Shown: in pieces, positions 1,024 to 58,467 of the stretch
How positions within the stretch are numbered: position 1 is the stretch's first letter
How the letters are laid out: each line of letters begins with the position of its first letter
Assembly: GCF_019059575.1 (NCBI RefSeq)
Contig: NW_024881507.1
Span: forward strand, 372,001-436,000
DNA length: 64,000 nucleotides
Direction: 5' to 3'
From: Amphibalanus amphitrite
Lineage: Eukaryota > Arthropoda > Thecostraca > Balanomorpha > Balanidae
The notes under the pieces: generated by a model
Seen by the model: the letters and a program-made list of their open reading frames with translations, nothing else
What the model was told of the DNA's origin: nothing
The model's database searches: none
Program-made: the position numbers and the translations under genes

Positions 1024-4000
1024 TTAGATCGATATATGCGTGGTGGCCGCGTCTCCGGGACCGGCGGGTGGCTTCATCGTGCCGAGGCCGACGGTGGCGA
1101 GCCGCGTCTGCGAGCCGAGCCCGCCGCCGCCGTCGGCGCTCTTCACCTCGCGCAGGTCGGCCTCGGCCACCCCGGTCTCCCTGCGCTGAGAGCGGCGCCA
1201 GCAGCGGCGCACGCAGCTCTCGATAAACTCGTACAGGGTGAACGCGGAGGCGCCCAGCAGCAGCCCCAGGTTACCACCGATATCCGAGACCATCTGTAAC
1301 GATGTCCGGGGAAGGAAGCGGATACATTTTATTGAAACATTCGAGATGAAAATATAGCTAAATAAGCTAACTTAACATTAAATTAGCATTTACATTTAAA
1401 ACTTTAAACTTTTTTGTAGTGCCATATCTACGCATTTTATCTTTTACACATTTTAAACAAGAGTTTTTATTAAATTTAACGGGCATATAGATTTGATGTG
1501 TAGGTAGGTACCGGAACTCGGCAAATAACCGTTCTCCATGAGTCATGACCATACGAGGATAAAATCTCCTCTTCCGATTGCTCTTTGTCCTTGTAAAACC
1601 ACCATCACCCCTCTGCAGCTGTCTTCACCTGCTGCATGTCGTAGGCTAGCGTCGTTCTTGAGACGTACAGACCCTCGGCGATGCTGAGCGCCACCCAGGT
1701 CTCGTTCTTCTTGTGGTTGAGCCGGTCGGACAGGGCCAGCGTAATGGTCTCCTGGTAACACTGCGGGCCGCAGCGCACCTTGCACCTTGCGGCGATCCTG
1801 CAGAACGGGCGCACTGTGAGGTAGGTACCGCGGTATAATGAGACAGACGACTTGTTAGAGAATCACGGGTCCCCGGCCGTCACCTACGCATTGTATTCTT
1901 TACGTGCAAGTATTGTGTTGACTGTTGATACAATTAAATCCCATTGATAGACATACTGGCATAATACGACAAGTAAATCAGAACGTACAAATTAAAGTAA
2001 GCCTTATTTAGCTCGTAAATAACACATAATATAATATTGGCATATAAGTAAATTTGCGTGTCGCGTCTTCATGTTCGCAACTCCGATGCCAGATATGCCG
2101 AAATACCTAATGAGCTGTATCAGGTATCCCTTACGTCGGTGACACGAGACGTCGGTAGTGCTCGGTCACCCCCATCCCACTTGCCTCTTCAGCGCGGCGT
2201 AATACTCGTTGGCCCTCAGCTGCTCGGAGTTCTGGTCCCAGACGATGTGCGTGCGGGAGAACATGCGGGTATAGTTGAGCAGCAGCTGGTAGTCGCGGGC
2301 GGTGTCACAGACGGGCAGCTTCACGGGCATCCAGGGCAGGCGGCAGCCGGGCCCGAGCGCGGCTAGCTCCGAGAACAGGCACTGACGGATACACTGCCGG
2401 GGGTGGGCGGTGGGGCTCAGATTGGGGGCATATACGAGCACGGTATGGTGTGAGACCAGATACAAAGGACAGCAGGACCATGTTACGGTGTTGGCCGAGG
2501 TGTAACAAATGACAAAGTTTACGAATAACGATGATTAGTTTGTATTGCCGTGAGACTGTCTATTCTTTACCGTGTACGTTGCATTACCGATGGTCGGCCC
2601 CGCGACTCACATTGGGCCGCGAGTAGGCCGAGTCCGTGTTGCAGGGGTTGGTGTCGCTCGGCAGGGCGATGTCCAGCATCCTGGTCACCTTGAGGTTCTG
2701 CTCCTTCCCGGTCTCCAGCTGGGCGCGTGGCGGCGCCCACACGTGCTCCCAGTCTGCGGCCAGCGGAGCACGTGGCACACGGCTCAACACGCGAGTCTCG
2801 CAGTGACGTCAACATGAACGACACGGGACACAGTTCACGACTCTCTGTCGAGGACGGCGTAGAACTACGTCATTATCGTGACCGGCATTTAGTGAGCCGC
2901 TAGACGGCGACACACAAACTTTTCCAGCTATTATCGTACTTGTGTCCGCCTTCGTCCGTCAGTATTGACACTGATGGTAGCGTTAATGAATAGTTCAGCA
3001 TGTTTGTAAACAGCGCAGTGGTCTATGAAAACGGTCACAGGATCGCCCTTTGGAGCGATGACAAATCCATCGGAAAGAGCATCGACAAATAAACGAATTG
3101 GTAATAAGTCCAGCATGCTTTTAAGCATTTGTCTTGCATACACTGTGCTCCTTGATAGTCATAAAGATCAAATATGTGGTAGGCACAATCCATTTAACAT
3201 TTTTCACTAGATTGGCGTCGGGGAAAGCCAGCGTGTGACAATTTGTAGCCCTTCTAACTGATGAACTCCATGTTAAAAGTACCACATAATTACCCCACCG
3301 GCGGGGCGTACCCATGTAGTGGTCATTGGCCGAGTGCACATAGACGTTCCAGTGGTGCCGGCCGCAGCTGGTGCAGTTGGGGTGGTTCAGCACCAACCAG
3401 ATGCCGCGCTGAACACCCTCGGCCAGCGCGTCGCTGTAGCGCACCGTGTGACACTGGCCGCCGTACTGGTACAGGTCACTCGTCACTGCCGAATGGTCTG
3501 AAGAAGGGGGGATCGTACGAGGGTGAAGGGATGTGTGAGAGAGAGCCTGTACCGCCGTTCTGGTACAGGTCACTCGTCACCGCCGAACTGTCTGCGGGGA
3601 GTGGAAGATGGTCACCAAGGAGCAAGACGGTCATCGGTTAATGATAATCTATCAATATCAACACTTTATTCATTTGCAGCGAGAAACAGTAGGCACGGAC
3701 CACAGGACCAGTGCCGATGTTTTCTATCGACTGAATAGCTGAGTCGTTTAGCGACTACTCACTGCAGCCGCCATTATAGAAGTCGGCGCAGCTCATCACG
3801 ATGTCGCCCCAGCTGCGAGTCATGTTCCACACGGCCTCCTCCAGGTCCACAGAGCCCCAGGGAAAGTCGGCCGTCAGCGCCTCAGTCGGGTTGACCAGCG
3901 CCTTCGGACGCGACCTGGAAGTTAAATCAGAGATTTTTATATAGTTTCGGAACCAAGTGATATCAAGTGTGCAACGATAAGACAGTGCTTAGGCCAATGC

Positions 4001-7000
4001 CAGTGATTGCACAATGCACATCCCTACATCCTGACCATGCAGAGTTGATAGGGATTGATATCACTGTCGCGCTTTGCGAAGAGCGGGCGGCGATCCACTG
4101 AGTGCGTAGGCTGTACCGCACTACACCCTGTACTGGTAGACTGCACCGCACGACACCGAATGCTGTTCGGCCCGAGCGAAGCAACGCGACGGCGGGGCGC
4201 CGGGCGCCGTCAGTGGTCGCCAACGGAACGGGGCTGGCTGGGCCTGGGCCGGCATAACCGGTGCTACAGTGGCCTCAGTCACATCCTTCCAGCTTATCAT
4301 AATGCATGTTTGCCTCTAAACATCCAATAGGGATCTATAACGGATAAACGTTTTACGTTCGGGGCATTGCACGTCAAATCGAACAAAAATCGGCTGTTTT
4401 GCACCTTACCATCAGCGATTTCGTTATAAATTTGTGAGCGAGTTCCTGTGTCGCCCCGAACATTACATTGATGTTTTTTGCACATTCTGACCACAGGTCT
4501 TCTAAATATAGGGCATCGAATTTTTACAAAATGTTGCATCTTTATATTTTTGAACGACCATAACTTTGGTTGTACTTGTTTGATTTGAATGAAATAAACC
4601 TTACTGTTTAGGTAATTTCTTAAGCATTTGTTTAGAATTGCACCTACTTAAATATATGACCTTGAAATTTGCTTAACTCTGTTATTAAGCACAAAAATTG
4701 AAATAGCAAAAAACACGTCACCTTCGATTTGGTTAATTTTCATATATTTTATTGTCCACTATATTCTTCACAACCTGTGAAAAAATTAGAGTGGGCCATT
4801 CATAAGTTTTGAAGAAAATGGCACATATGCAAACGAATGTTAGCACGCGCAGTGGAGGGGAAAGAGTGAATTTCGCACCACCCCTCCTGTCGCCACGCCG
4901 TCCTCTGGTCTGTAGTTGCGTACAGCGACACTTGATTTGACTGACTGGCTGTGGTGCAGGGTGAGGAGAAAGTGGATTTTGGTAGAGGATGGGAAGGAAT
5001 GCGGTAGCCGCCGAGTGACCACAGCCCCTCGATGGCGAGGCTGCTGTGGTCAGACGGATCTGAGATGCTCCGGGATCTCGATGGCGAGATTGACCGAAAC
5101 CGACTGGCCGCCCCAGGAACGAGGAGGCCACGAGTGTTGTATCCCGATGGCGAGACACGTCACTCGCGGTCAGCTTCGATGACTCGATGGCGAGACACCG
5201 CAGCCGCCTCCCTCCACACCCTCAATGAGAAAAGGAGAGAGAAAGTAGTGGGCCCAGGACATAAAGACAGGTATCAGGAGCAGCCACGATTAGCACTGCT
5301 TGCACCGTCTTCCGCCACTTATGTCACCGCCCACCACACAAAGATGCACTTAGTAGGACGCTGTATTTGTTCTTTACCGTCCTCACCGCACGAGTCACAG
5401 ACAGAGAGTGGGCCGGCGCAGCGAGCACCGGCCCCAGGTCACCTCGTTCCTCCCTCGCGGCACACGCCGGCGGCGGCCAATCACGACAGCGGGCCCTCAC
5501 GTGACCCGAGCCGGGCCTCGCCTCGAGCGGGACCACCGGACGCACGTGGCCACCACATGGCTCGGCCGTAACCGGGCGGAGGGCGGCCGTCGGCCACTAC
5601 ATACTCCCCCACCGTGTTGCGCCTCGCAGCAACACTACACAATGCTCAGCCGACGCGCCAATGCTACATATAGACATTATACATTCTCACGTTCGCGACC
5701 TTTAGAACATAAATGTGTCTTCACAGTTACCAAAGTCGTTGTTACAAACATACAAGACATATAAATACCGCTGCCAGCTAACTTGCTTTAGCGATGGCTC
5801 AAACATTCACCTCACATATCAAACACTGTACGATTGCTCACCGCACAGCGCGCCTCGCGAATGATCCTCAGCCACCAGGCAGCCCAGCTCCCGCGATCAA
5901 CGGCACTCTTCCTCCAGGAAGCAGATCTTTGCTGCTGGTCTGGTGTACGTCTTTCCGCAGGAGGTCCGTAGCGCGGCTGACCGGACTCTTCCGTCCTTAC
6001 CCGGGAAGACCTGAACGATCCTGGCCAGAGGCCATGCTCCTCTGGGCAGATCGGACTCAGCCATGAGGACCAGGTCCCCCACTTGAAGGCTTCTTCTTTC
6101 CTGGCGCCACTTGCTCCGCTGTGTCAAAGTCGGTATGTATTCTCGAGTCCACCTTTTCCAAACGTGTTTAGCCACAGCTTGCGACTGTCTCCACCTCCGA
6201 CGGCTGCACATGTCGTTGTCTCTTGTCAGGACTGGTGCCAGGTGTGGGGAAGCACGACCAAGCAGGAAGTGGTTAGGAGACAATGCTTCGGGATCAGATG
6301 GATCGGAGCTCACATAGGTAAGTGGGCGGCTGTTTATCATGTGTTCGACCCCCGCGAACACAGTCAGGAGAACTTCATCGGTCAGCAGCTGAGATCCGAC
6401 GACTGCCTGCAGGCACGTCTTGACCGACCTCACCATCCTTTCCCAAACACCACCCATGTGGCTGGCCGTTGGTGGATTGAACCTCCAGTCAATCTCGAAG
6501 GCGCTCAGGCGCTCAGGCATCTGCGCTAGCAGCACCTTCAGCTCTTCGCGTAGTTCACGGTTGCTGCCGATAAAGCTGGTACCGCGGTCCGAGAAAATAA
6601 CCGCTGGCTGGGATCTGCGAGAGAAGAAGCGTCTGAGGGCCATGATGCAGCTGTCCACTTCCAGCGAATGTGTCACCTCCAGATGAACAGCGCGGGTCGC
6701 CAAGCACGTTAGCAGCAGTCCGTATCGCTTCTCAGTTCTTCGGAACCGCTTTACTCGCAGTGGTCCAAAGTAGTCCACACCCACGTTCTTGAACGGATGA
6801 TCGGCTTCAAGTCTCTGAGCGGGAAGGTCAGCCATCCTTGGTGGCGCCGGAGCAGCTCTGCGTCGATGACAATAGAGGCAACTGCGGAGCTGCTTCTTCA
6901 CCTCTGCGCGTCCTTGGGGAATCCAGAACTTCTGCCGTACTTCATTCAGCGTGTGTTCCGTCCCCGCATGACCATGACGGACATGCTCTTGCATGATGAT

Positions 7001-10000
7001 GAGCCTGGCGAGCTCGCTTTTCCTCGGCAGGATGATCGGATGTCGGGACTCCTCGGGAATAGATGCCTTCCCGATGCGTCCTCCAACACGGACCAGGCCA
7101 TTGCTGTCGCAGATCGGTGTCAGCGAATGCAGAGGACTGGAAGTCTGGATCGGCCGTCGCTGTTCCAGACATCGGAGTTCTTCCCCGTGCGTCGTGAGCT
7201 GCTCTTGTCTGATGATCCAGACTTCGGCCTCCACCATCTCAGAGCGTGATAGTGGACCTGATAATGGAGGTTGTTGGCCGGGCAAGAACGCCTTCAGGTT
7301 GTGCACAAAACGCTTGATCCAGCCGACAACTCGCTTGTACTTGATCCACGATGAATACTTCGCTGGGTCCGGTTCTTCTGGTCGCGTTGATGCGGCGATG
7401 ACATTCACTGACGTCGCCTGTTTTTGTTCTTCTTCGTTGTCTGCCAGTTCTGGATGCTTTTCCAGTTTCCTCTCTGTTGATGTTAGCCGGTAGTACGCCT
7501 GTCTTGAGTTGTCGGGGAACGTCGGATTTTCCTCACTCCACAGCAAGCAGGTTTCGTATCTCTCCCCGACCTTTTTGGTCTCTTGATCCAGAAGAGCCAA
7601 TGCACGGAGATCTTCTTGAGATCTTGCGTCCTTGACGTTGATCTTTGTGTCAAAGGCTTCAGTGGTCCACCACTCCTGAACCAGCTCACTCAGGTTCTCT
7701 TCATCCGTTGACTGTTTGCGTACAAACATGACGTGTCGCGTACTACAGGGTACCAGTGCCGATACAGATCCAGTCAGGGTCCAACCGAAATCTGTCCTCA
7801 CTGCGACCGGTTGGCTGGTACCTCCCACTCTGATCTCCCGTTGCAGGACAGCTTCCAGTATGTTGGCCCCGAGCAGCAGCTCGACACGTGCACCACTGTA
7901 CTGAGGAAAGTCGAGACCCTGCAGATGCTTCCAGCTGGAGGTCTGTAGTCGGCTGATGCTGGGTGGAGTAACATTCAATCCTGGCACAGACCAAACTTCC
8001 GGGATTACGATGTGGCCCTCTTTGGCATCGGCAGAAATAGGGCTGACTGTCAACGGAACACGGATGGATGACTGTCTCTGTCCGCTTCCTTCGACGTTCT
8101 GAAGTCTGAGCTCTTCACGCTCCCCCTTCACACCGATTTCTTGCAGCACCTTCTCACAGCAGAGTGACGTTTGCGCCCCCGGATCCAGAAGAGCGACAAC
8201 ATCCTTGTCACCGTTCGGGCCGTGGACTCTGACAGGAACCAGTTGTAGAAGCGTGTCTGTGGCTTCCGTCATGGCTGCACCAACGATCGGATCTTCTCTG
8301 TTCAGGCGATTCTCTGTTCTGCCGCTGCTCTCCCCGCCCCCTGAATCACCTCTGGGCGTATGTAGAAACTTGTGATGTGTCGCCCTGCATCCATCTGTGC
8401 CACAGCGCTTGGCAGATCTACACGATCTGACGAAGTGCCCCTTCCTGAGACAGGCCCAGCACAGTCGCTCCCGTCTCACAGTCACGAGCTTTTCCTCCAG
8501 CGCCTGGGCTTGAAAATCAGGACAGTTTTCCAGTTTGTGCTCCCCTTCGCAGACGACGCAAGGCCTGAGCCTATGGCTTTCCTCACGCGGTGAGGATGCG
8601 GAAGTGGCCAATGTCGTCCGCCTCGTCATGGTCTCTTTCGGAGTCACCACAGTCTTCCTCTTTTCGGGGTCACGGCTCGGGCGAGTGGTGTAGCTCAACA
8701 CGTTCACCTGGATCTTCAGCCACTCGCTAAACATCTCCAGATTGGGCTGGTTTGGTCGCATCCTGTAGACTTCTTGGCCCCACTGATAAGTCAGCTCGTC
8801 AGGGAGCTTGACAATCACTCTGCGGAGGGTGTCGCTTGCCCCCAGATCATGATAGTAGCCCAGGGCTCGCAGAGTCATAACCGTGTTGCTGATGGCGGAG
8901 CTGAACCTCTCCATTGACGCCAAGCTATTCACACTTGGTGCTGGGGTAGAAAACATCTGATTGAGACTTGCCTGGCTGATTTCGTCTTTCCGACCGAAAC
9001 GTTCATATAGCGTCTTCAGTGCTTGCTCGTACAGCGATCCATCAAACAAAAGCCCTTCAATGGCTTGGTGGGCAGGGCCCTCAACTGCTTGCTGCAGATG
9101 AGTCATCCGCTCTGCATTCGTCAGCGATGTCTGATTGTGGACCAGCACTTTAAAGAGGCTGATCCAACGAGGCCAGTCAGCGGGATCCCCTCGATAGGTG
9201 TGGAGGCTGAGGCTCGGCACACTCTTGGAGAACGCTGTTGACTGACTCGAGCGTGCTTGCTCTTGAGAAACATCTGGAATCATCCAGGTACTGGGATCTA
9301 GGGTTGTGGTTGCACTTCCAGCTGAGGCCTCAAGTGGTGCCCCAGTCGCAGCTTGATCGGCTGTCGTCGGCTGCACGGCGTCGTTCACAGCGCAGTCTTC
9401 GTTTGCCAAATGGTGTGTGGCAGCGGCGTGACCTTCCTGCCGCTCGTCCCTCTGTTGATCACGCTGAGAGTGCATGCCGCAGTTACCCATGGATGTCGCA
9501 GTGCCCTTACAGACACCTTCACGTGTTGGCTTTGCTTCTTCTCCCACCCCAGCGACAGCTTCGTCAAAGTCATGACGACGATCCCAATTCAGGTCATCTT
9601 CAGCAGCGCGATAGAGACGGACCTTTCTTGCTGCTCGATTTCGAGTCTCTTCAGCTATCTTCAGCTGAAGTGCACTGTCGCGCTCTTGAAGCTCCCACTC
9701 TTCTTGTTGTCGGAGATTCTCCATTTCGAGCTGAGCTTCACGTTGGCGTTTCTCCGCCCTTTGCCTCTCCATCATGTTACGGCGACTTTCTTCTACCTGG
9801 GCCCTGACGTCTTGTAGTTTGCGATCCGCATCCTCCAATTCTACGGCGACCACTCTTGATCGGACTGAAGCGGCCGTCCCTGCTGACGTATGTGACTTGG
9901 CGCGACTCGGCCCACGGTGGGAAGTGGTAGCTGATGAACGAACTTCGTCCAGCTCTTGGAGATATTGTTGAATCTTGCCCTGGATGGCTAGCTCTTCTTC

Positions 10001-13000
10001 TTCGAAATGATCGGCATATGCTTGAGCTTCTTCAGTCTCTTCGTCTCCCAGCTTGCTTTCATATGTCTGATGAGTCTTTCGCAAATCGGCAAATGCTTCT
10101 TCTAGTCTTGCGCTGACCTGATGGATGCGGTCACGATTAGCATGTCTTGTTATCTCTACTTCTACTGCTTTGCTGGCCCTTGTCGTAGCAGCCCTCTTGC
10201 ATCCACGCAGTCGGCGCAGGTCAGCAAGCTCCTGATCCTTGGCGGCACGCTGAGCTTCAGCCATTGTAGGATCGACTGCTTGAGTTTCACAACTGTATTC
10301 TGCATCCATTCAGCAGTTGCGATGGGATCTCCGGTTGAGATCCGGCCCGCGGAGGACCAGAAAATGTCGCCACGCCGTCCTCTGGTCTGTAGTTGCGTAC
10401 AGCGACACTTGATTTGACTGACTGGCTGTGGTGCAGGGTGAGGAGAAAGTGGATTTTGGTAGAGGATGGGAAGGAATGCGGTAGCCGCCGAGTGACCACA
10501 GCCCCTCGATGGCGAGGCTGCTGTGGTCAGACGGATCTGAGATGCTCCGGGATCTCGATGGCGAGATTGACCGAAACCGACTGGCCGCCCCAGGAACGAG
10601 GAGGCCACGAGTGTTGTATCCCGATGGCGAGACACGTCACTCGCGGTCAGCTTCGATGACTCGATGGCGAGACACCGCAGCCGCCTCCCTCCACACCCTC
10701 AATGAGAAAAGGAGAGAGAAAGTAGTGGGCCCCAGGACATAAAGACAGGTATCAGGAGCAGCCACGATTAGCACTGCTTGCACCGTCTTCCGCCACTTAT
10801 GTCACCGCCCACCACACAAAGATGCACTTAGTAGGACGCTGTATTTGTTCTTTACCGTCCTCACCGCACGAGTCACAGACAGAGAGTGGGCCGGCGCAGC
10901 GAGCACCGGCCCCAGGTCACCTCGTTCCTCCCTCGCGGCACACGCCGGCGGCGGCCAATCACGACAGCGGGCCCTCACGTGACCCGAGCCGGGCCTCGCC
11001 TCGAGCGGGACCACCGGACGCACGTGGCCACCACATGGCTCGGCCGTAACCGGGCGGAGGGCGGCCGTCGGCCACTACACCTCCTGTTTTTCGCCAATAT
11101 CTCATAGTAATTATTAATGCGAAATTAATTATAGCTACCTGTCCAAAATTGAATTTCACATCTCATCGTGCAAGCAAGAAGAAAATCGGTTCACAACTGG
11201 TCTAGTAATAGCGGTGTAAAGTGAACATCCTGTCGCCGCGGCGACGCGGCGACTCGGCAGCCGGCGCCGACCGCTAGCCGCCGCCTGATTGTAGACTGTG
11301 CCGGGACGGAACGGAACGGTTCCGTCTTTACATCGCGCTCCTTACCGCTGATTACGTTCGATTCGCGTCAAATTTTGTGAGAAGACTAAGAAATGTACAG
11401 GCAATCTTATGGTGTAAGAATTGTGAAAATCGGTTGGTAAACAATCGAAATATGAACGTGTAAACACAAAATTGTGATTGCTGCGTTTCCCGCGTCGGCC
11501 GATCCCGCCTCAGCCGGCGACATGTTACTCTTAGCAGGTCTCTAACTGCCATATTTATTATTGGATTAACACGAAATTCCCCATAGGGTAAGGGCGGGTA
11601 AGAGTACGCGGGCGATAAGAGTACGCATCAGCTGTTTCGGTTGCTTAGCAACGCGGGTTTGTCGAGTTCATGAAGTGACATGAAGCCGCCAGTGCGTGCA
11701 TGTTACCAACGGAACGTGGGCGTTGAGCGGCGACGCTGTTGAGTTTAAGGCGATGAATATTATTTTCGAGCGTTATGATATTATTATGGTAAGGTACAAT
11801 AATTTTGATACTTGGCAGTTGAGATAAGGTACATTTCCGTGATTGTTGTCGGAAACTTGTGAGGTTATCTGGGGAAATACTGTGCAGTGCAATATTCTGT
11901 TTGCGAAGTTTTGCACAACGTTTCGGGGTTGTTTTGTGCGCGAATTGCATGTACGGTAAGAGGACGCACTGTTCAGGAGGGTAAGAGTACGCAGAATTAT
12001 ACATTAAATCGAATCCAAACAAACCGTGAGGCACGAGAACGGAGCACTCGACATGATGATGACCTGCGTCTGCCACGTGTACGGACGGAGACTGGGAGGC
12101 GCCGGTTCTTGTACCGTGCACCGATGCTGTACAATGCCCTCCCAGTGGAAATGCGCACGATGACAGTCGCCAATTTTAATCACGCTCTCAAGCGAGTTAT
12201 TAGCACGAGGGAAACATAGGAATGCGTGTTTTACTACTAGTTACTTGCTGTCGTCGTCATTATTGTCTTATTTTAGTTTTTCCCTTTTTATTATGCCCGT
12301 TTTAGTTTATGTGCATGTGGAAAGTGTGAATGTCTTTTTATATCACTGCATTTCACAACTTGACTGATGGCAAGGAATAGCCACTATGAGTGGATTTGCC
12401 TGAATAAAAATTGGTATTGGTATTGGTATTGGTAATATACAGAAATATAGAATTATTAATCTATCGCTCAATGACGTTTGTTTTGTAGGTATATCATCAA
12501 TGGAGCACTGTGATGCAGATGCGTACCCGAAATTCTTCCAAATACGAGTTATTCTCCCTTTTGATTGTGCATTTTTTAAGAAACACACGACATGATTATT
12601 TCCTGATTTATAGACTTGAAAGATTTATTTTATGTTTTTCTTTTTGGATACTAGAATTAACTTAAATGCCTTCTGAGTTTGAAGTTAAGCATTTGGACAG
12701 AGAACAAGCTGCATAGGTGTGTGTTCATATGCTTGCGTACTCCACCCGCCTGGCGTGCGTGCTCTTACACACCCCATATGGTAAGAGTACGCAAGTGCAA
12801 CGGTTCAGAAAATATCAGTTTTAGACCACTTCCATATACGCTGAAGGATCGTTGCCCCATGGGTTGATGGCTAATTCAATGAGCTTTAATATTCCCTATT
12901 TGCGATTTCTTTCCTTCAAATATTAAACAAATGAGAGCAAGAAATCCACTAAGTGCGTACTCTTATACGACTTCACCCTACATACTCAAAAATGTATATT

Positions 13001-16000: not shown

Positions 16001-19000
16001 TGGATTGCATGAAGCATTAGCTTTCAATTAGAGTTCTATATCTAGGTATATATAATTTGAAGGTGATATGTGCATGCAGTTAGTAATTACCTTCATACCG
16101 CAATGTAAGTTCTTAGTACCTACTTGTGAGCCACTAGCAAGCTGGAAAATCTTTCGGCCTTCATCGACTGTTTTTGATTTCGCCCGTCCATTAAATCGAC
16201 CATTGGTAAGTATTTAATTAATATTGTTGTTTACATATCTATTATCGTATTGATAAGTGTGAAGCATCGGTACAATGCAACAGCAGCACAATATCTGCAA
16301 ACCAATTTATTGGGCCTTGATGACATTTATGTACCTACATTGAAAACACACCTGCCTGTGATTCGCAGGTAGACGTCATCTCTGAAGATGTCCTCCTGAA
16401 TTCTACAGATTGTTACGGCAAATTCTTGTGGTGCAGACTCGTCCACTTCAAACGACTTCACCGTGTCTTGTCGGATAAACTTGGTCAGGCTTATACTGCT
16501 CTGTAACAGATTATGGATGTCTATAAGAAATAAAAATATACAAATTATAAAAAATAATAACAAAATATGCGATTAAAATAAAAATGAAGATAATATGATA
16601 AGGTATACGTTTCTTACATGAGCACTCGCACGAAATGTTAAGGAACAAAACTTAAATTATCCCAAATTATTCAAAAATTAGTCCATGAAATCATGGATTT
16701 CACTGCTTTATTCGAGTCGGCTGCCTTCAATTGCGGTACATCATGTCTCATACACGGTAGGCTTAAATCATAAATTACCTCTGCGTGCATGCTTCATTAT
16801 AATTATGATTGCTTATACGGATCTTCTACAAAGTGACAATGCCATATACCCAAATACGTTTAAATATCGCAGACGGCAACATCATATTTTGTCCATCGGC
16901 GCGCATTTAAAATACCCACATGAACTATGAATCTTAAACTACAATAAATAACTGACCTTTTTATATAAAAAACGACAATACATTCAAATACACAATGATA
17001 TACATTAAACCGCGAGTAGGTAGAAAAAAATCTTTTAAACGTAGAGCCGATAGGTGAGACGTTTAAAAGATGCTTCTACTTACAAGCGGTTTAATAATTT
17101 TATCCCGTACCGCCGATGTCTTTTGGGCGCTGAAAGGGAAAAATACATTTTATATAAAAAAATACGCCATATTTTAGACTAGACGAAATGTCTACTAGAC
17201 GTTTAACAGTTTGTTAATCGTCTAGACGTTTACCAAAGCAGTTACACGACATCTGATAAAATAGGTATATTAAACGATGAGTAGGTAGAACAAACAATTC
17301 TTTTAAACGTTGAGCCCATAGGCGAGACGTTTAAAATATTTTTCTAACTACGAGCGGTTTAATAATTTTATCCTGTACCGCCGATATCTTTCGGGCGCTT
17401 AAAGGTAAAAAACACATTTTATATAGGTAGAAAATACAACATGTTTCAGACTAGCCGAAATATCTACTAGACGCTTAACAGTTTGTTAATCGTCTAGACG
17501 TTTAACAAATCAGTTACGCGACATCTGATACTTTTCTCTCCTTGCACACGAAGCAATTATAAACACTGTCTACGGTGCGGGATGAAGATACATAGCTTTC
17601 GGCATTGGTAATAAATACCTTGATTACTGTGTATATGTTACAGGCCGTATGAAAACTCAGTCCGTTTGCAAACGGCCTGGCCCGAGTCAGGCCGTTTGCA
17701 AACGGCCTGGACAGCCCAGTCAGTATGCAAACGGACTAAAAAGTCAGGCCGTTTGAATACGGGCTGAAATTCCAGGCTGTATGCAAACCGCCTGAAATGT
17801 CAGGCCGTTTGCAAACCGTCTAGGCCGTATGACAACTTTCCAGACACCACACTGAGAGAAATTTTGACTCCCTTTAGGAGAGTTATCGAGAGTTACCAAA
17901 AACGACTCCCTAAAACTCCAGGCAGCTACTCCCCTTTACTCTCCCTCATAACTATCACTGGAACTCTTCATCACTCTCCTCCATTACTCTTCATAACTCT
18001 CTCGACCCATCTCTACTCCCCTCTACTACTCCCCCTAGAACTCTTCATTACTCCACATTACTCCCCCCACGTAACTCCCGTTAACTCCTCATTACTCTCC
18101 CACTGAACTCTCGCGTGAACTCCCCATTACTCTCTCACGGAACTCTCCCGTGAACTCCCCATTTCTCTCCCACGTAACTGCCCATTACACCCCTCGTAAA
18201 CCCTCATTACTCTGCCTCTCTCGAAACTGATGCGAATAGAACAAACCATTTATTGACATTTTCATTTGTGAAGTTCAATCTTACACGTGTATCTTCGTCA
18301 CAAAACGTGAACAATAATTCATCTAACTGACCAGTTGCGCCTCTTATCTATAATGTGATAAAGAACCAGCTGTTGCTGTGCACAGCAAACTCTCACTCTT
18401 TATCAAAACATGTGAGGCTAAGGCATCCCTTCGACGAAACTCAGCGAATAATCATCGAGCAATGGTATGATTCCAGTACAGAAAAAAGAAACCCAAAAGC
18501 CGGGTAAACCTAAAATACACAGCACAATGCAGAAGTTGGATTCCTGCATTAAGAACACCGCTTATTTTACGATACCAATTATTTCGTCCGATGGACTATG
18601 GAACGAAGTAGTTACATATCCGTGACATTAAAATAAAAACAGTAATTAACTTCTTAAAACCTGGCCGTCAGCACGACTCACCACTCACCAGCGCAGAGAA
18701 CACCCTTCCTTCAGCTCCTGGAGCGGTTGGCCTAGCTAATTTCAACCACACCATTCTACACACCCATTTTCACCAATACCACTGCTCGGTATTATACGGT
18801 AATCACTCGGTCCATCGCTGTCATTGGTCAGTCCTCAGTTACTCACACCAGTTGCCAGTTGATTCATCCAATGTTCTGTTAGGTACCTATTACCAACCTC
18901 TTGATGTACAAACAGTTTTAATCTTCCGCCACTGCCACGGGCACACACTTATTTCACCAATTCACTACCAAAGCAATGTAGAAATTCAAATAAATTGCAC

Positions 19001-23078: not shown

Positions 23079-23087
23079 ACAGTTCAA

Positions 23088-25945: not shown

Positions 25946-25954
25946 ACAGTTCAA

Positions 25955-39027: not shown

Positions 39028-39124
<97 letters not shown>

Positions 39125-42100: not shown

Positions 42101-45100
42101 TCGGCAGGCGGAAGTACATGTTTTCGATCCACGACGACATCACCCGTCTGGTGTTCATGGGTCTGGCGCAGCTGGGACAGCAGATGCTGGCCAAAGATCA
42201 GGTGAGGACGCAGCGAGGTGGGCCTGATGGGGGCTCCCCGCTGTGGAACCTGTTGAGCGGCCTGCACCCTTTGCGGGCTAGCCGTACCATGCCGCAAGCA
42301 CATTGAAAGTATCGAGGTAGTCTTTCCGTTTCCCAGCATATTCTGTTTGTGATTGCGATTGATGATATTCTGCCTGGCAGGCTTTTGTGCTCTTCGGGGG
42401 TCTGTATGTTACCCTACATCTGTTTTTGTTTGTGTCTGTTTTTGACGGCAGTCTGTGTTCACCGTCAGGTGTTTGTGTTCTGTAACCGGAACGCCTCGCT
42501 GCTGGACACCAGCATCTCCAAGGAGGGCTACCACCGCGTCGACCCGGACATCCAGTACCCGGTGAAAATGTACCACTTCGACTCGCTGTCGGCGCTCAAA
42601 GACTACTGGTTCGACCTGAAGACGATCGCGCTGAGCACGGCGCTAGGTAAGGGGGCGCCGGCGGAGCGCTGCTGGAAGGGCTGGAGGGGCCAAAACAGGG
42701 ATAGCTGGAGGTGGCAAAGTAAGACAAGGTTTCTAGCATGTTATCGTTATAAACAAATACGATCTGCTTAGGTGCTTGGTGCTATGTCCACCGTTTTAGA
42801 TGTCATTCTGCGGTTCTGAACTTCCGTACTCCTGGCCAACCTCCCACCTGACCTCCGACTTCTGATGTGTCTGCCCTGCTCTCCCGGCAGGCTCCCGTAA
42901 CCTGGTGGCCGGCCAGAAGATCACTATCGAGATCCCGTTCTACAAGCCGGCGCTGGTGCGCTGGGCCAAGCCGCGCACCCCGGACCAGGCGGACGGCCTG
43001 GACCAGGGCGAGATCCCCGGCGACCAGCTCGGAGCAGGAGGCATCGACACAAGCATGTTCGCGTGAGTGGCGCGGCGGCTGGTGAGGCGGGGAAGACGGG
43101 AAGGTAGACAGTAGCGACGGGAAGGCTGGGTTATACATCAGCTGTGGTTCATGTGTGATCGTCTCTTTTTATTTTTAATCCAAACTATCTTGACTAATGG
43201 CTGTTGGTATTGTGTGGCGAATTTGTAATGGCGTGAAGAAAGTATGTCTGTCTGTTTTCAGTCATGTCCTGCGAAACTGGAAGTGGAGAAGGATGGCTCA
43301 GCTCACGCAAGCCAATAAGACGGTACGTCGCAACTTTTGTGCTGTCAATGGCTCATTAGCCCGATGCGTTGCGAAGTTTTAGAAAACAATATCCACTTAG
43401 TTTCTGCATTTAGGTACTGTATTAGTTGCTGTAGTGGGCTTCACATTCATGTTTCTGATATAGGTCTTTGAGACGGGGTTAGAGGGAATAAATAGAAATA
43501 TGTCAGCTCCAAGTGTACAATTTTATGTAATTCTGGCGCTCCCGCCGACTGACGTTGTTCTCTGGCCCCCAGCCGAGCGGTCCGTCTGGCTCGTCGGCCG
43601 GCGGCCCGTCCACTGAGAACGGCACAGAGAGCGGGCCCGCACGGGCGGCCAAACGGCGCCGGCACTCGACTGGCGGCCGGCGGCGACCGGCGCCCAAACT
43701 GATGGAGCCGCCCTCGGAGCCGCTCGGACCCGTGGTGGACGTCCACATACACAAGGTGAGGGGGGCACACAGGGCCAGAGGGCCACTGTGCACACACTCG
43801 GGACGAGGGAGATACGCAGTGTCCTGGAGCCGCCCGCGGAGCCGCTCGGACCCGTAGTGGACGTCCACATACACAAGGCGAGCCGGGGCAGGCCGGAATG
43901 AGAGCCGCTGTTGTGTTTTGTCACTAAAATCGGACCTTGATTTAATAGTACGTTCAATGTTCGTGGTACTTGACGAATGCATACTTTTTTTTTATCAGTT
44001 TCAGTTCCCTATCTTTAACCCCTGTCTTTAACACCATTCCATTGCAGTTCGTAAATCGACCACCAAACTCCCCGCTGGTCCACCTTTTCTATGCCATCGC
44101 AGCTCCCAGTTAGATACCAGAGAACACACTATGTATGACCGCGCCTCCCCAGCCGGCGGACGGCTCGGCAGAGCGACCCGTGATGGTCACCCGCGGCCGA
44201 AACGTGCCCCGCTCCCGGGCGACGCGCAAACGGCCGGCCGAGAACGACAGCGAGCAGCCGGGGCCGAGCCAGAAACGACGCAAGTCCGCCATGGATGGTA
44301 AGTGGCCAGCGAAGGGAAACGGGAGGAGGGGAGCAGGGGGGGGGCGCTGTGTGGTGGTTAACAGCTGTTTTCCAGCCTTTTCTCGAATTTATACATGTGT
44401 GTGGTAAGGTACGCAGTGCTCGAGGTATTCGCTTGGGTTGACTTTCGTCCCCAACTTAATTTGGAATGTTTGGCTGATCTAAACGATATTATTTTATGGA
44501 TGATCGGGATGTCATGGATAATCTTGTGGATAATCGGGCATTTCATTTATAGCCGGCTCATGAATAATGTACTTTTTCGCCTCTCCTGCTCGGTGACTTT
44601 TCCCCTCCCTACCCGCTCATGCGCTGTGAAGCGGTCTTCTGCCCTCGCCACCCGTCCGTTTGTGATTGTACTGACGCGGTCCCTGTCTGCTCCGTCAGCG
44701 TTCAGTGCCAGCCACCGGCCGGGACTGGCCGAGCGGCGACTCCGCGTGTTCCGACCCAACCAGAAGACCAAGTTCGAGCGCATCATGGGCTCGAAGAAGA
44801 AGCGCGGCCCCAAACCTCCGCGGGACGAGATTGACAAAAAGGCGCTGCAGCTGCTCAAGAAACAGTACGGAAAGGGCGCGCGGGGTGGCACTGGGAAATA
44901 TATGGGATGTACGAATTGTTTGTTGTTGGTGTTAGGTGGTACGGGGAGAATTACGATGACGATGGGAAGAGTCAAGGTTGGCCAGCTACACTTTGACAAA
45001 CTCTCGTGTCTGTATCATAATTGTGCTGTATGATTACCTGTCTCTGATGCCGAAGTGAGGATGCTTTGAACTACTGCTGTCACTGACTCCGTCTCTGTGT

Positions 45101-48100
45101 AACCGTCAGACGGTGCGACTGGTCGGAACGCGAGAACACCTACCTGTTACTGGCGCGCGTGGCGCTCGGCCTACTGGTGGACACCTACAAGGTGCCCAGC
45201 CGACAGTACATGACTGTCCGGGACGCGCTACACGAGACAATAGAGGTGAGAGAGGGCATCTCTGACTGATAGTGGTGTTACGTAGTGTTCATGGAGCAAG
45301 GCAAGTGGCGCAATGACGCCATCTACGATGCTGAATGCCCTCATTTGCTCGCAATGATTTTACTTGGCAATGGCTCGTGGAGGTCCACTTTCCACAAGGT
45401 CCGACGAGGTCCTTCTATTTCTCTCGGTGCCTGACGGCAGCCCGTCTCCCGTCCCCCAGGAGTCGCGTAACAAGACGGCGCACGCGGTGCACCGCCGGAT
45501 CGCGTTCATGTTGCGCCGGCCCCAGACGGTGGCCAACGTGAGCCTCACCATACAGGAGCACCTGCTGGACCCCGACATACGGGCCATCATCCACCAGGAG
45601 GAGGTACGTCTGGCTACGGAGGGGGGTAAGGGGAGGGAGAGGCAATGATGGAGAAAGTAAGCAGCTCGATGAATTATATCTGACCTCCAGAGCTGCTGTC
45701 CCATAATTATACGCTGAACAGCTATAATTTTGCCAGTTTGCTTCCGTGGCGTTTGACTGTTCTCTATTCTCTATGTTCCATAATCTGACAGTGTTCTCTG
45801 TACTTCTCCACAGCGTCTGACGCAGAACTCGTTCAACACGGAGGTGGTGTTCCCGCAGCGGTTCCGTCAGGTGATGGCCATCCTTTTGGCCAAGAACGAC
45901 CGCTCGGCCGTGAAGGGTGACCTGCTGCCCGCCGACTACGCAGAGCTCACGTAAGACACACGCGGAAGCCGGGCGGGTCAACGGGACGTGGGTAACTTAT
46001 AGGGCACGATGTGCTCTCGTCTTTCTTGGCCGACAGAGGCTCTAGTCTGTATAGAAAGCTGATGAAAAATTGTTGACTAGCATAGCTGAGTGGGGTAAGT
46101 TGTCCAGGTTTCAATTAGATCCGCTGTTAGTAATAAACGTCATTGGCTGGTTAGTGGTTATGGAACAATTTTATTAAATAACACGCTCAAAGTTTGTCTC
46201 ACCAGTGATTTTATTGCGGCTAGGCGTTGCGTCTGTTGCCGGCTGACCAGCTCACCCCCGTCGCCTTTTTACGTCCTGTCTGACCGATGCCGCGCTGACC
46301 GTGCCCAGGGACAAGTACGACATCGTGCTGGGTGATAACGTCCGACTGGGTCTGGTGGTGCCAGTGCCGGCGCTGATCTCCGAGGGTGACGTCCACCTGC
46401 ACACGGTGGCCGGGCTCGTGGTGGTGAGTTATAGAGCGGGTTCTGAATTATGGAGCTATAGGGGGAGATGTACACCTGCACACGGTGGCCGAGCTGGTGG
46501 TGGTGAGTGGTAGAACGGATGGTAGTGTGTGGCAGACGGTCTAGTGGGTCAGTGGACTAGGCGTGTATCATATTAAGTTGTTTGGTCGGATTGAGACTCG
46601 AAGTGATTTTCTGGTTAATCAGGGAAAATAAATGTCGAGCAGATTAACACACCGCCAATGTATTAATCTGTACTTGACAGACGTCCACTGTCTAGGCTGC
46701 GGGGTCTGATGTGTGTTGCCGTCCAGACCCCTCTGATCTGTCTGCCACTGTCTCCTCTCTCCATCTGACCCCATCCCTCCCCCCGTGTCTCCACCAGTCG
46801 TACCTGACGTCGCGCGAGGACAAGTCGTGTCCGATGACGCAGCTGTACCACGCCAGCCAGCAGTACCCCGAGGAGCTCATGTTCGCGGCTCTCACCCATC
46901 TCCGTACGTCGGGCGTGGCCTCACAGCGCCGCGGGCACGCCGGTATACGGGTCATCAAGGAGAGCAAGGGCCTGCTGCACCCCACCAGCAAACCCTACAT
47001 ACTCTCCACAAAGTGAGTCAGGTACCCCACCAGCAAACCTTACATACTCTCCACAAAGTGAGTGGGACAGGGAAACCCCACCAGCAAACCCTACATACTC
47101 CCCACAAAGTGAGTGGAGGCACCCACCAGCAAACCCTACATCCTCTCCACAAAGTGAGTGGGACATCCACCAGCAAACCCTACATACTCTCCACAAAGTG
47201 AGTGGAGGCACCCACCAGCAAACCCTACATCCTCTCCACAAAGTGAGTGGGACATCCACCAGCAAACCCTACATACTCTCCACAAAGTGAGTGGAGGCAC
47301 CCACCAGCAAACCCTACATACTCTCCACAAAGTGAGTGGGACACCCACCAGCAAACCATACATATTACATACTCTTTACAAACTAGGGAGTGGGACGAGT
47401 AAGATGCCTGGTATTGATGCTCTTCAAGCGGATCGGATAATGAAGATGGATGGTAGCATCGTTACTAGTGCTGCCGATATCAGTAGTGATTTTCCTCTTG
47501 CAAAATGATGTCGGAAATGGGAGTTAATATTGTTTTACCAACATTTTAAATTGTCTAGATGTCCTTACTCTGGTTCCCTTTTCTCACATTCTCTTTGAAC
47601 TAAAACACGTGTGATTTGTAAGTTTGCCCGTTTATGATTTTCTATTGTTCGATATGTGTGTGAGTCAGGTTCCGGCACAAGTTCATCCAGCGGTACCAGT
47701 ACGGCCTGTACTCCGACTGTTTCAACTTCTTCAAGACGCTGCTGTGGAACTCGCTGAAGGAGGAGGCGTTCACGTCCATCGGCGGCATCCAGCGCGGCGG
47801 ACAGGCCGCCATGATCTTCAGCCTGATGGCCAACAACCAGGTGAGCTGGGATGGCGGTCTGGGTGAGGGTGCTGGGAGTAGGGTGTAGGAGGGCGCTGCA
47901 GAGGAGGGACGGAGGTGGAGTCGATGGTGATGCTGTCTCATTAATTATTGTTCAGTGAATAGTAGCTCATGAAGACGGGTTTGTGATTACTGAAAGAAAG
48001 CATGTCTTAGTTTAGGATTCATGTCTGCTCCTTCAGAGAGGAATATTATTCCATGTAGCGGACGTGTGCCTGCTGACCTGTAGCCATCTCTAGGCGGTGG

Positions 48101-51100
48101 TCACATAAGACTCGCTGTCTCTATTCACTCCAGTGTGTGGCGGCGGTCACGGCAGCCCACTGACTCGCCCCTCTCCGTCTGACAGCTGGCGTACGAGGTG
48201 TCTGTGCCGGAGAACCTGATCCGGCTCAGTCGCAAGGAACAGGAGCAGGGCTCCGCGCTCATACAGGTCGGTGACCGGTATCGACAGTATGCGATATCAC
48301 CGATATAGCCAGTACACTCGTTGATGGTGCCAGTATAACATACGATCAGGATATTATTGCCGATTTTTTTTTGTATTCATTTAAATTATACAACGTCCTT
48401 TTTTTTGCTTTGTTTGATGGCCTGCATGTAGTTTTACATTTCCCACGTTCTTTGATGTGTCTTCGCTGGTCTGATTAGCAGAGCTCAATTCCTGTCACCA
48501 TCTCTCGAGCATCCCAACCTGCCGCTATTTGGTACCGAGACTGCCAGCTAACCACCCGTCCCACACCGTTTATCAGGACATTGAGGAGCGCCAGTCGCGT
48601 CAGGAGGCGCCCGCCGACGACGGTCACATGTCGCTGGGCCGGACGGGCGCCAGCGGGCAGAAGCGGGTCGGTCTGCGCTCGTCCATGTCGCGGCTGGTGC
48701 TGCTCGCCGCCCGGGAGAGCCAGGACACCGAGCTGGCCATGGCCGACGGCGACAAGGCCGGCGGGTGAGACAGGCGGGACGGGGTGGCTGAGTGTGGGAC
48801 CGTGACCGGGTGGAGCGGGGTGTGACAGGACGGGACGGACAGCAGGGGGTGGGGTGCGGGGAAAGAATCGCGAGGGTCATCTGTCAGGCTCATGGTATAA
48901 GGTAACTAACAATGTACGGAAACGAGCTCGATGGCAGACGGAAAATGCGAGCACAGGATTCCTTCAGAAAAGGAGCGGTTATGCAGGCGCTTGTTTGGTC
49001 GGATACCGGACCTTGGATGTTACCGCTGTGTCTGAGTGCTGTTTAGCAGTTACCGACAAATATTGATGACGTCTTCTCTCTGCCATCCCAAGTCAAACTT
49101 TCCCTGACTGTAGCCCCTTCCCCCCGTTCCTCCCGCCCTCAGGAAGGACACGCACGAGTATCACGAACAGCTGCACATCGTGCCGTTCACGGTGCTGGGC
49201 CGTCTGGTGGCGGCCACCCCGCCCCCGCCGGCGGCCGACGGAGAGACCGGCGACGGCTCGATGGAGGTTGACGAACAGTTCATTCCCGTCACCCCGCTGA
49301 TGGCGCAGGCCACCCGGGACAAACACGCACGGTGAGCGCGGACGGCCGGGTGACGGCGGCTGGTTGTGATAGAAGGGAGTGGTGGAGAGTATTGATGGAG
49401 TGATGGCTAGTGACGCTTCATCCAAGTGGACAGGGCTGAATACCTGTGCGGTCGACGGGTGCGTGGACGGGTGCGTCTCTGGGGTTATGATGGAACCTAC
49501 CGTTATGAAGTGTTATGCCATCTTGAGCCTACTGTATGTACAATGTACATAGTTTGTATGCCTCGATGAAGCCCGTGAAGACCCGCGACCTGCACTAACC
49601 GAACGACTTGTGACCTGTCCTGACCCGTGACCCGTCTGCTGACAGGATGCTGAGTGCCAGGGCGCCGCCGGTGGAGTCAGTACTCACCCGTCTGAAGGAG
49701 GAGGGCGCGATAACCACCGAGGAGTCGCGGCACATCAAGCACCTGCTGTCGCTGCTGGACGACGCTGGCGTGCTGGGAATGCCGCCCGAACAGCTGCTGG
49801 TGAGATAACGGCCGGAGGACGCTGGCCGATCAGCGGACGACTGAGGGCCGAGGGGGGAGGGGGATGCTGGGCACGCAGGGGCTGTCTGGCCGGGTGGTGT
49901 ACGATAGATGGGTCACACGGGCAGATCGTTCAGTTCGGGCTCGCACTGCCCCTTCTCCGTTTTTTTTTTATTTTTACGCTCGAGTGCTGTGCCCTTTCTT
50001 TGTTGACATGTGAACTCAATTCATTGTGAGTGTCCCCGTTTGATGGGGATTTTTCCGTCTGTTGTGGTTTTATTTCCTGTATGATCAGGTTCTACATATG
50101 TTTCCTCGGATGCGGTCTATGTCTGCGGATGTCAGTCCATCAGTCATTCACCGCCCTCACAGTGACTGTGTCCACGTTTCCCCCCAACGTCTAGGCAGGG
50201 TCGAGCTGCGCCACCTCACCCCTCACTGACTGTGTGTCCCCCCCCCCCCCTCAGCTGGAGTCGGGTCTGGGCCGCGCCGAGCTGCGCCGGCTCTGCGAGC
50301 TGATGGTGCGCCACGAGCTGCTGCTGCGCTGCGGCGTGGGGCAGCTGGTGTACGTGTCGCGCGCCGCCGGCCAGCCCTGGGTGCTGCACTCGTACCACCT
50401 GACGCGCACGCAGCAGGACACGGTGGCCAGTCGAGTGGCGGCCGCCGGCGGCGACCTGCGCGCTGCGCCCGAAAAGTGAGTGTCCTCGGGCAGGGAGTGG
50501 CCTGGCCTATCGCTAGAGTGGGGTCAGACCCACACATACCCTTGCCTTATCAAGGTTATTCTTAGCACCGAGGTGAGAGGAAATTCCATGGGTGCGTCAG
50601 CGAGATACACAGCCGAGTGATTGAGTAATCACGATAGCTAGTCTGATGCCCGCACTCAATGCTTAGTGGCCTTTCCGACAGTGACGGCTTGGCTTTATCA
50701 ATAAGTGGTGATCATTGTTAACCACATGGTCTGGCTAGATGGCAGATACTTCCTTTTGACACCCCACCGGTGACACTTCAGTTATCATGCGGGAGTTACC
50801 CCGAGCTGGCCCGACCGTTTCATTCAGCGTTATCAGCCACTCGTCCTCACCGGACCGTGCAACCCTCCTGACCTACTGAATCAGCACAAACTCGACCTCT
50901 TAAGCACCAGCCAGTAACCGCCAACCACCCCGCCCCGCCCTGCAGGAACCTGCAGTCGGTGTATCTCCAGCCACTGCCCTAACCGCCCCGTTCTGCTCTG
51001 CAGGAACCTGCAGTCAGTGTACTTCCTGCCGGTGCCGTGGCGGCGCATCTCGGGCTCGGTGAACCGCCGCGTGCTGGACCGTCTGTCGGGCGCCATCCTC

Positions 51101-52198: not shown

Positions 52199-52311
52199 AG
52201 ACCGAACTATAGACGCTCGCCCGCTCGTGCACAAGTTGTGTTGTTTTCCGTTCGCCACTGCCCGTCCGGTACTGTTACGTTGCTCGTCCGCACTATCGAA
52301 TACACAAGATG

Positions 52312-52350
52312 TAAATAAAAACGTGTTTAATCGAGCGTAGCACAATAAAC
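52312..52350 (+). terminator. Candidate polyadenylation signals of GTF3C1
   Basis: Two AATAAA hexamers (about 52314 and 52343) lie 115-145 bp downstream of the GTF3C1 stop codon, the usual position for 3' end formation. On the other strand a TTTAAT near 52324 reads ATTAAA and could serve the convergent vasa transcript. Confidence 0.6.
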
Positions 52351-52883
52351 TGGACTAACAGGGCCCTCGGATGCCGAGCCATCACACAGCGGCCGGGGCG
52401 GGCGCGGTGGCCGCCGGGCGCCCGGTCGGCCTGGTCACGCCGCGGTCACAGCCTGGTACGGCCGGCCGGCCGCCCGGCGGCCACACCACACACCGCGCCG
52501 CGCGCCCCGGCACCAACAGACCCGAGTAGCTGAGTCGGCGGCGCGGACCGGGCGGCCGCAGCGCCGCCGGTCCGCACACCGCCCTCCGAGCGCGGCAACA
52601 CGCCGCACCGCACCGCGCGGCGGCACCCGGCCGTCCCTAACATGGAACGCTGAACTGAGAATGGCTACCAACTTGGTAATAAACGAACTCTAACAGACTA
52701 CCAACGCGTCGCCGCGTACACTTTCTGCCGCCATTGCACGGCTAACTCAACAACGTCCGGCCCCAGCGGGTCGCTCAACCTGCGACAGAGATGGAGGAAC
52801 AGGGCGGGCCGGCCGCGCGGCTCACCGTCGGCCTCTGGCAGGCCGCCCGGATCACTGCCGCCCGGCGCTCTCCGTCTGGCCAC

Positions 52884-58074
<5,191 letters not shown>

Positions 58075-58081
<7 letters not shown>

Positions 58082-58467
58082 CTGTCGGAGGGAGAAACAG
58101 TCGTCAGCGGAGACTGCCACCCCCACACCGCCGCCGCCGCCCGCCTGTCGGAGGGAGAAACAGTCGTCAGCGGAGACTGCCACCCCCACACCGCCGCCGC
58201 CGCCCGCCTGTCGGAGGGAGAAACAGTCGTCAGCGGAGACTGCCACCCCCACACCGCCGCCGCCGCCCGCCTGTCGGAGGGAGAAACAGTCGTCAGTGGA
58301 GACTGCCACCCGCACACCGCCGCCGCCACCCGCCTGTCGGAGGGAGAAACAGTCGTCAGCGGAGACTGCCACCCCCACACCGCCCGTCTGTCGGAGGGAG
58401 AAACAGTCGTCAGCGGAGACTGCCACCCCCACACCGCCCGCCTGTCGGAGGGAGAAACAGTCGTCAG
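58075..58467 (-). repeat. 7-copy tandem array of a vasa splice acceptor
   Basis: Units of 63 bp (five) and 54 bp (two) each contain, on the minus strand, a pyrimidine tract TGTTTCTCCCTCCGACAG and the first codons of the downstream exon (Ala followed by Gly codons). The CTGTCGG step occurs at 58082, 58145, 58208, 58271, 58334, 58388 and 58442. All units are multiples of three and open in the vasa frame, so upstream acceptors would add 18- or 21-residue modules without a frameshift. Confidence 0.92.

Follow-up and report, generated by a model that had tools for sequence, protein, structure and literature searches.

Eight of the 104 splice junctions in three neighbouring genes, a DEG/ENaC channel gene, GTF3C1 and vasa, lie inside local duplications in which the repeat unit crosses the border of exon and intron and carries the splice site with it, for vasa on condition that its acceptor is real. 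The duplications are confirmed as real features of these genes and they affect four donors and four acceptors, with a copy number that varies with the locus from 2 to 13, as the original prediction had held; a self-comparison of the genes returned exactly the eight junctions that it had named. We consider, with a probability of about 0.68, that they arose as ordinary local duplications, through break repair or slippage and with some of them now minisatellites, which are tolerated since the extra copies are spliced out. The structures apparently belong to a known kind, and what is new is their apparently non-cephalochordate host and their density.

The window, that is the whole stretch of 64,000 nucleotides that was analysed, carries three genes that were rebuilt from the raw sequence on the basis of open frames, splice borders and homology. 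GTF3C1 lies on the + strand (27289-52198) and comprises 39 exons encoding 1981 amino acids with no internal stops, numbered identically in the original prediction and in the rebuilt model. The vasa gene, on the - strand, has nine recognised exons (52890-58081), its start not being found in the rebuilt model, and the DEG/ENaC channel gene, also on the - strand, is represented by its last six exons (1024-3914). Together they provide 51 donors and 53 acceptors. Pfam matches were obtained to the TFIIIC B-block and GTF3C1 winged-helix domains for GTF3C1 (first 467 residues tested), to DEAD and Helicase_C for vasa, and to the ASC sodium-channel family for the channel. Among the best 60 of 86 matches of vasa exon v8, silkworm vasa scored 93.5 bits and fly vasa 86.4 and 83.8 bits, with DBP2 (72.8 bits) and DDX3X (66 bits) lower and lancelet vasa absent. 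Median intron length is 287 bp, and GC content averages 0.65 in exons and 0.52 in introns, with 0.63 in the outer 20 intron bases and 0.49 beyond 100 bases. The vasa matches, the short introns and the intron GC content suggest that the host is an arthropod, perhaps a crustacean; were the DNA from a lancelet, the duplications would count as already known. Rfam, at gathering thresholds, yielded no matches, and no relatives of GTF3C1 exons 17-20 were found in viral_contigs. The channel intron following exon c4 apparently starts with GC rather than GT (2184-2185, - strand).

The eight loci are as follows, the working copies being those predicted from homology or open frame (see below).

3458-3594, - strand: acceptor of channel exon c2, junction 3497/3498; predicted working copy 3458-3500, extra copy 3552-3594, with 39/43 bases alike at lag 94.
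40689-41090, + strand: donor array of GTF3C1 exon 17, with 13 donors at a spacing of 30-34 bp and GT in each copy; predicted working donor the first, junction 40709/40710.
41267-41736, + strand: acceptor array of GTF3C1 exon 18, with seven copies at a spacing of about 61-76 bp, one of them without AG; predicted working acceptor the last, junction 41693/41694; the repeat cluster extends back to 41110.
43703-43882, + strand: donor of GTF3C1 exon 23, junction 43755/43756; predicted working copy 43703-43760, extra copy 43825-43882, with 55/58 bases alike at lag 122; the extra donor is a weak GC site.
46384-46518, + strand: donor of GTF3C1 exon 29, junction 46423/46424; predicted working copy 46384-46439, extra copy 46463-46518, with 48/56 bases alike at lag 79.
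46979-47382, + strand: donor array of GTF3C1 exon 30, with eight intact donors and one degenerate at a spacing of 44-51 bp; predicted working donor the first, junction 47012/47013.
50923-51036, + strand: acceptor of GTF3C1 exon 37, junction 51003/51004; extra copy 50923-50978, predicted working copy 50981-51036, with 45/56 bases alike at lag 58.
58051-58473, - strand: first recognised exon of vasa, with seven acceptor-like copies at a spacing of 54-63 bp; 58081/58082 is assumed to be the working junction.

Lagged self-comparison of the three genes (lags 12-600, score at least 15) returned 13 loci, comprising the eight over junctions, two weak and wholly intronic ones at 51428 and 54874, and three coding ones at 38570, 56372 and 57842 that consist of low-complexity or repeat-domain sequence. 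The coding cluster at 56372-57176 spans two junctions, yet no copy crosses either, and the lags of coding or exon-only repeats are all multiples of three. A score of at least 25 leaves eight loci over junctions, one in the vasa zinc-knuckle exon and no wholly intronic locus. With a stricter filter and a score of at least 18, eight were recovered over junctions together with one wholly intronic and two coding loci, one of the latter classed as mixed; no locus reached this score in any of 12 block shuffles. The self-likeness filter was set at 0.70 for the scan at a score of at least 15 and at 0.65 both for the scan at 18 and for that of the rest of the window, and the lower value removes the coding repeat at 57842 from the count at 18. 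Segments with strong self-likeness at short period, among them the CT run at 39032-39122, were left out of the counts.

All eight loci had been described as tandem, which holds for the head-to-tail arrays of exons 17, 18 and 30 and of vasa, and nearly so for exon 37 where the copies stand 2 bp apart, but not for c2, exon 23 and exon 29, where 51, 64 and 23 bp of filler, respectively, separate the copies. The splice dinucleotide is retained in 13 copies at exon 17, in eight at exon 30 (plus the degenerate one), in six of seven at exon 18, in seven at vasa, and in two each at c2 and exons 23, 29 and 37. The intronic share of a unit averages 30% (z -1.95 relative to an even split). The claim that the units share no sequence was also upheld, since none of 56 comparisons among the eight units, in both orientations, was significant after correction (lowest P 0.003, corrected to about 0.19), and an introner-like element family, with the same sequence at many introns, was rejected on the same result.

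Duplications of this kind already have a name, mirages, and the original report is said to be that of Canestro and colleagues in 2002. Although the original prediction knew of no named class, the term is applied to such structures in amphioxus in PMC3087553 and PMC3902484. In the former, mirages are tandem duplications that resemble minisatellites and cover exon-intron boundaries, at the 5' or the 3' end of the intron, in Adh3 and the globin genes BflGb6 and BflGb9; the latter adds PGBD5 and cites TnC. The extra borders of lancelet mirages are reported to leave splicing undisturbed. The amphioxus structures share with ours boundary units that carry splice signals, occurrence at both intron ends, many copies and a unit length specific to the locus. 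The loci described here differ in their apparently non-cephalochordate host, in numbering eight within three neighbouring genes and in the filler between copies at c2, exon 23 and exon 29; regular mRNA splicing in spite of the copies, and variation of copy number among alleles or in somatic tissue, belong to the concept of a mirage and would be predictions for ours, which are known from the genomic sequence of one haplotype. A search of open-licence papers found the phenomenon, among the matches listed and in the text available from them, in amphioxus only, and the available portions of PMC12783039 and PMC8270832 contain nothing directly bearing on junction duplication.

At all eight loci the predicted working copy adjoins the exon body and the extra copies lie on the intron side, the vasa working copy being assumed. 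Human GTF3C1 (8cli_A) aligns to the joined exons 17 and 18 with no gap across the border, which by homology firmly identifies the first of the donors and the last of the acceptors as the working copies; exon 17 alone had no solved-structure match and it was a longer piece that matched 8cli_A. For exons 29 and 30 the indication from homology is looser, the human alignment being ungapped at the e29/e30 and e30/e31 borders but of low likeness and with gaps nearby. The working copies of exon 23, exon 37, c2 and vasa were chosen by open frame.

Splice-site matrices derived from the 47 donors and 49 acceptors outside these loci placed the extra sites of exons 30, 29 and 37, of c2 and of vasa within about 2 bits of the working sites. 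The extra exon 23 donor scored 4.4 against 10.4 for the working one, and the exon 18 copies scored 7.0-13.2, excluding the one without AG. Since the extra sites mostly score near the working ones, their silence would require a further rule. Only two of the 78 combinations of exon 17 with exon 18 sites are in frame, the normal pair and one of the 77 alternatives, and an in-frame repertoire generated by combining the two arrays was rejected accordingly. Use of an extra site preserves the full-length frame in none of seven cases at exon 30 and in none of the single cases at exons 23, 29 and 37 and c2 (0/11).

The preferred reading, ordinary local duplication tolerated through splicing, envisages that a short stretch of about 30-69 bp across an exon-intron border would be duplicated locally. 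At c2, exon 23 and exon 29, two copies around unrelated filler would fit the repair of staggered breaks with insertion, while the head-to-tail or nearly head-to-tail copies at exons 17, 18, 30 and 37 and at vasa would fit slippage or unequal exchange, with four of the head-to-tail loci having subsequently expanded into minisatellites. The exon-adjoining copy would keep working and, with the extra copies inside the intron, the mRNA need not alter and the duplication could drift, whereas wholly exonic duplications would mostly be purged. Junction duplications should therefore be nearly neutral, because splicing discards the extra copies, and wholly exonic ones not. Duplication probably comes more easily to GC-rich exons and flanking sequence than to the AT-richer mid-intron and, taken together with near-neutrality, this would explain part of the excess over chance. 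The sequence shows the anatomy, the working copies as far as homology indicates them, the consequences for the frame and the surplus relative to uniform placement; the duplication mechanism, the near-neutrality and the silence of the extra sites are what we infer from these patterns. In favour of this reading are the intron-side position of the extra copies, the ungapped human alignment at exons 17 and 18, the exon-only lags in multiples of three, the lack of a common unit, the fall of GC from exons to mid-intron and the like anatomy of published mirages.

Repair of the copy-filler-copy type is supported by the likeness between copies ending 3 (c2), 5 (exon 23) and 16 (exon 29) bases into the intron, longer gapped alignments of the intron sides being no better than shuffled sequence (P 0.76, 0.13 and 0.12, respectively); the intron sides at exon 37 are alike too, with 0/500 shuffles as good. 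Plain neutral decay would not lead one to expect what is seen at exon 18, where copies differ less in their exon part than in the 15 intron bases next to it (ungapped pairwise differences averaging 0.097 and 0.283). Corresponding values for the exon part and adjoining intron bases are 0.033 and 0.062 at exon 30, 0.053 and 0.048 at exon 17, and 0.071 and 0.019 at vasa, and we offer no single explanation for these contrasts.

For vasa alone, the array may consist of coding repeats within the glycine-rich N-terminus, with no splice junction duplicated there, an alternative that we take seriously while leaning somewhat against it. None of the seven copies contains a stop or shifts the frame, so that each of the six extra sites would keep the frame when the exon itself only is read, and the remaining N-terminal region is also built of coding repeats; however, the acceptors of the copies have scores of 11.2-12.1, higher than the median (9.4) of the 49 other acceptors. 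The original claim of a vasa acceptor array thus stands for the seven acceptor-like copies, but their common frame leaves their nature as duplicated acceptors in some doubt.

The excess of loci at junctions was estimated with a null in which units of equal length were placed randomly in gene sequence, extra copies being collapsed and wholly exonic placements removed. The test set consisted of ten loci, the eight together with the two weak intronic ones; GTF3C1 intron 8 (6651 bp) was excluded from the gene null and from the own-intron tests, and 4 of the 104 junctions, at region ends, were excluded from the placement test. Eight of the ten loci fall on a junction where uniform placement predicts 2.4 (P 2e-4), and the claim of recurrent, unrelated junction duplications is sustained here, with weaker traces at other junctions. 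With GC content matched to 6 points, 4.2 loci would be expected (P 0.01), such that composition accounts for roughly one third of the excess; P is 0.02 when only the four long arrays are considered. Outside the three genes, 35.3 kb of the window hold eight loci with a score of at least 18, a rate that predicts 1.1 junction loci against eight seen (P 2e-5) and about 3.4 wholly intronic loci against one seen (P 0.15). When this rate is raised 2, 3 and 4 times, the P value for junction loci becomes 0.002, 0.02 and 0.09. Among 93 other exon edges compared with their own intron, the vasa acceptor being excluded as no upstream exon was modelled, likeness reached P<=0.05 at 10 and P<=0.01 at 5, the corresponding numbers for 77 mid-exon control probes being 2 and 0, with the clearest weak traces at the acceptors of exons 12 and 36 and the donor of vasa exon v5.

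Both the excess after GC matching and that over the rest-of-window rate, together with the traces at other exon edges, favour a mutational process directed at splice junctions beyond composition, for example through transcription-linked breaks or splicing complexes stalled at exon edges. Such a process is possible but, in our judgement, unlikely. The P values overstate the case because the window was singled out as striking, six of the eight loci lie in one gene and those of exons 17 and 18 in the same intron, and because junction copies, having one constrained exon part, stay recognisable for longer; a fourfold higher background suffices to bring P to 0.09. The suggestion of a process acting on junctions lost ground to the GC-richness of exons and their flanks. 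Ordinary local duplication has its own counter-point here, in that eight loci against 4.2 expected mean that composition is not the whole account. We are equally doubtful that an active process in a non-cephalochordate, probably arthropod, genome preferentially duplicates junctions and that several percent of them carry young or decayed extra copies; if true, mirages would be a recurrent, and perhaps animal-wide, source of decoy sites and new introns.

Selection for extra splice sites, retained as backup or to allow a regulated output of unproductive transcripts, is improbable. It would accord with the GT or AG and good score kept in most copies and with the frame kept by one exon 18 copy and the six extra vasa copies, but young arrays retain sites without selection, and the protein is preserved by only one of the 77 alternative exon 17 and 18 pairs and in none of the 11 cases elsewhere. 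The proposal of selected redundancy is consequently unsupported for GTF3C1 and for the channel: apart from that exon 18 copy, every extra site there would break the frame or add a stop. Assembly artefacts, affecting the arrays wholly or in copy number, are very improbable: tandem arrays are prone to poor assembly, and PMC3087553 describes the amphioxus BflGb6 mirage as aberrantly assembled in the genome draft, but the copies differ by substitutions and indels, each locus has its own unit, and the two-copy loci are only partly identical, three of them with filler.

Intron gain provides further comparisons. In the Rogers model, tandem duplication of an exon segment bearing AGGT creates an intron, and the likeness lies in local duplication with splice signals; the donor and acceptor of such an intron are copies of each other, which is not so here. 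Rogers-type gain was rejected across the introns of the three genes, with a mean donor-acceptor score of 6.98 against 6.81 for the control and 4 of 51 introns at or above the control's 95th percentile, about chance. PMC4202315 attributes direct repeats and filler at new introns of Daphnia pulex, a crustacean, to staggered breaks, and the resemblance extends to direct repeats of exon ends flanking inserted sequence. Those repeats, where shared with an adjacent exon, measure 4-12 bp and stand at the opposite end of new introns, whereas ours measure 43-58 bp and stand at one end of introns not known as new. Direct repeats over the splice sites of some new introns are also described for Drosophila in PMC2809761.

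If mirages prove common outside lancelets, they would supply raw material for intron gain and would constitute natural experiments in splice-site choice, with up to 13 equal donors or seven acceptors in series; at exons 17 and 18 it is the exon-proximal copy among the repeated sites that homology picks out. It would also become testable how far splicing shields local duplications from selection.

Several other features were observed in the window. A BEL/Pao-like element lies beside channel exon c1 (4888-10900), with direct repeats 99-100% alike and about 5.48 kb apart. Its 1470-aa frame matches DUF1759, Integrase_H2C2 and DUF5641, while a protease and the integrase core match weakly, below cut-off. 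At E 0.01 none of the reverse transcriptase families matched, and the element may therefore be a recent non-autonomous copy. In GTF3C1 intron 5, a stretch at 29220-29310 judged by eye to be tRNA-like carries a GGTTCGAGTC box and is perhaps a tRNA-derived SINE; ARAGORN, run with the bacterial code, found no tRNA, there included. Short, partly palindromic repeats with units of 20-28 bp around GGCCGTTTGCAAACGGCC occur in noncoding DNA at 17641-17818 and 20835-21013. The acceptor edges of exons 12 and 36 have weak extra copies in their own introns (38331-38468 and 50189-50288), which are possibly decayed junction duplications. Finally, a GC-rich open frame of 1743 aa with its own 39-bp repeats runs antisense in GTF3C1 intron 8 (31257-36488, - strand); its sole Pfam match is far under cut-off and it is possibly a nested gene.
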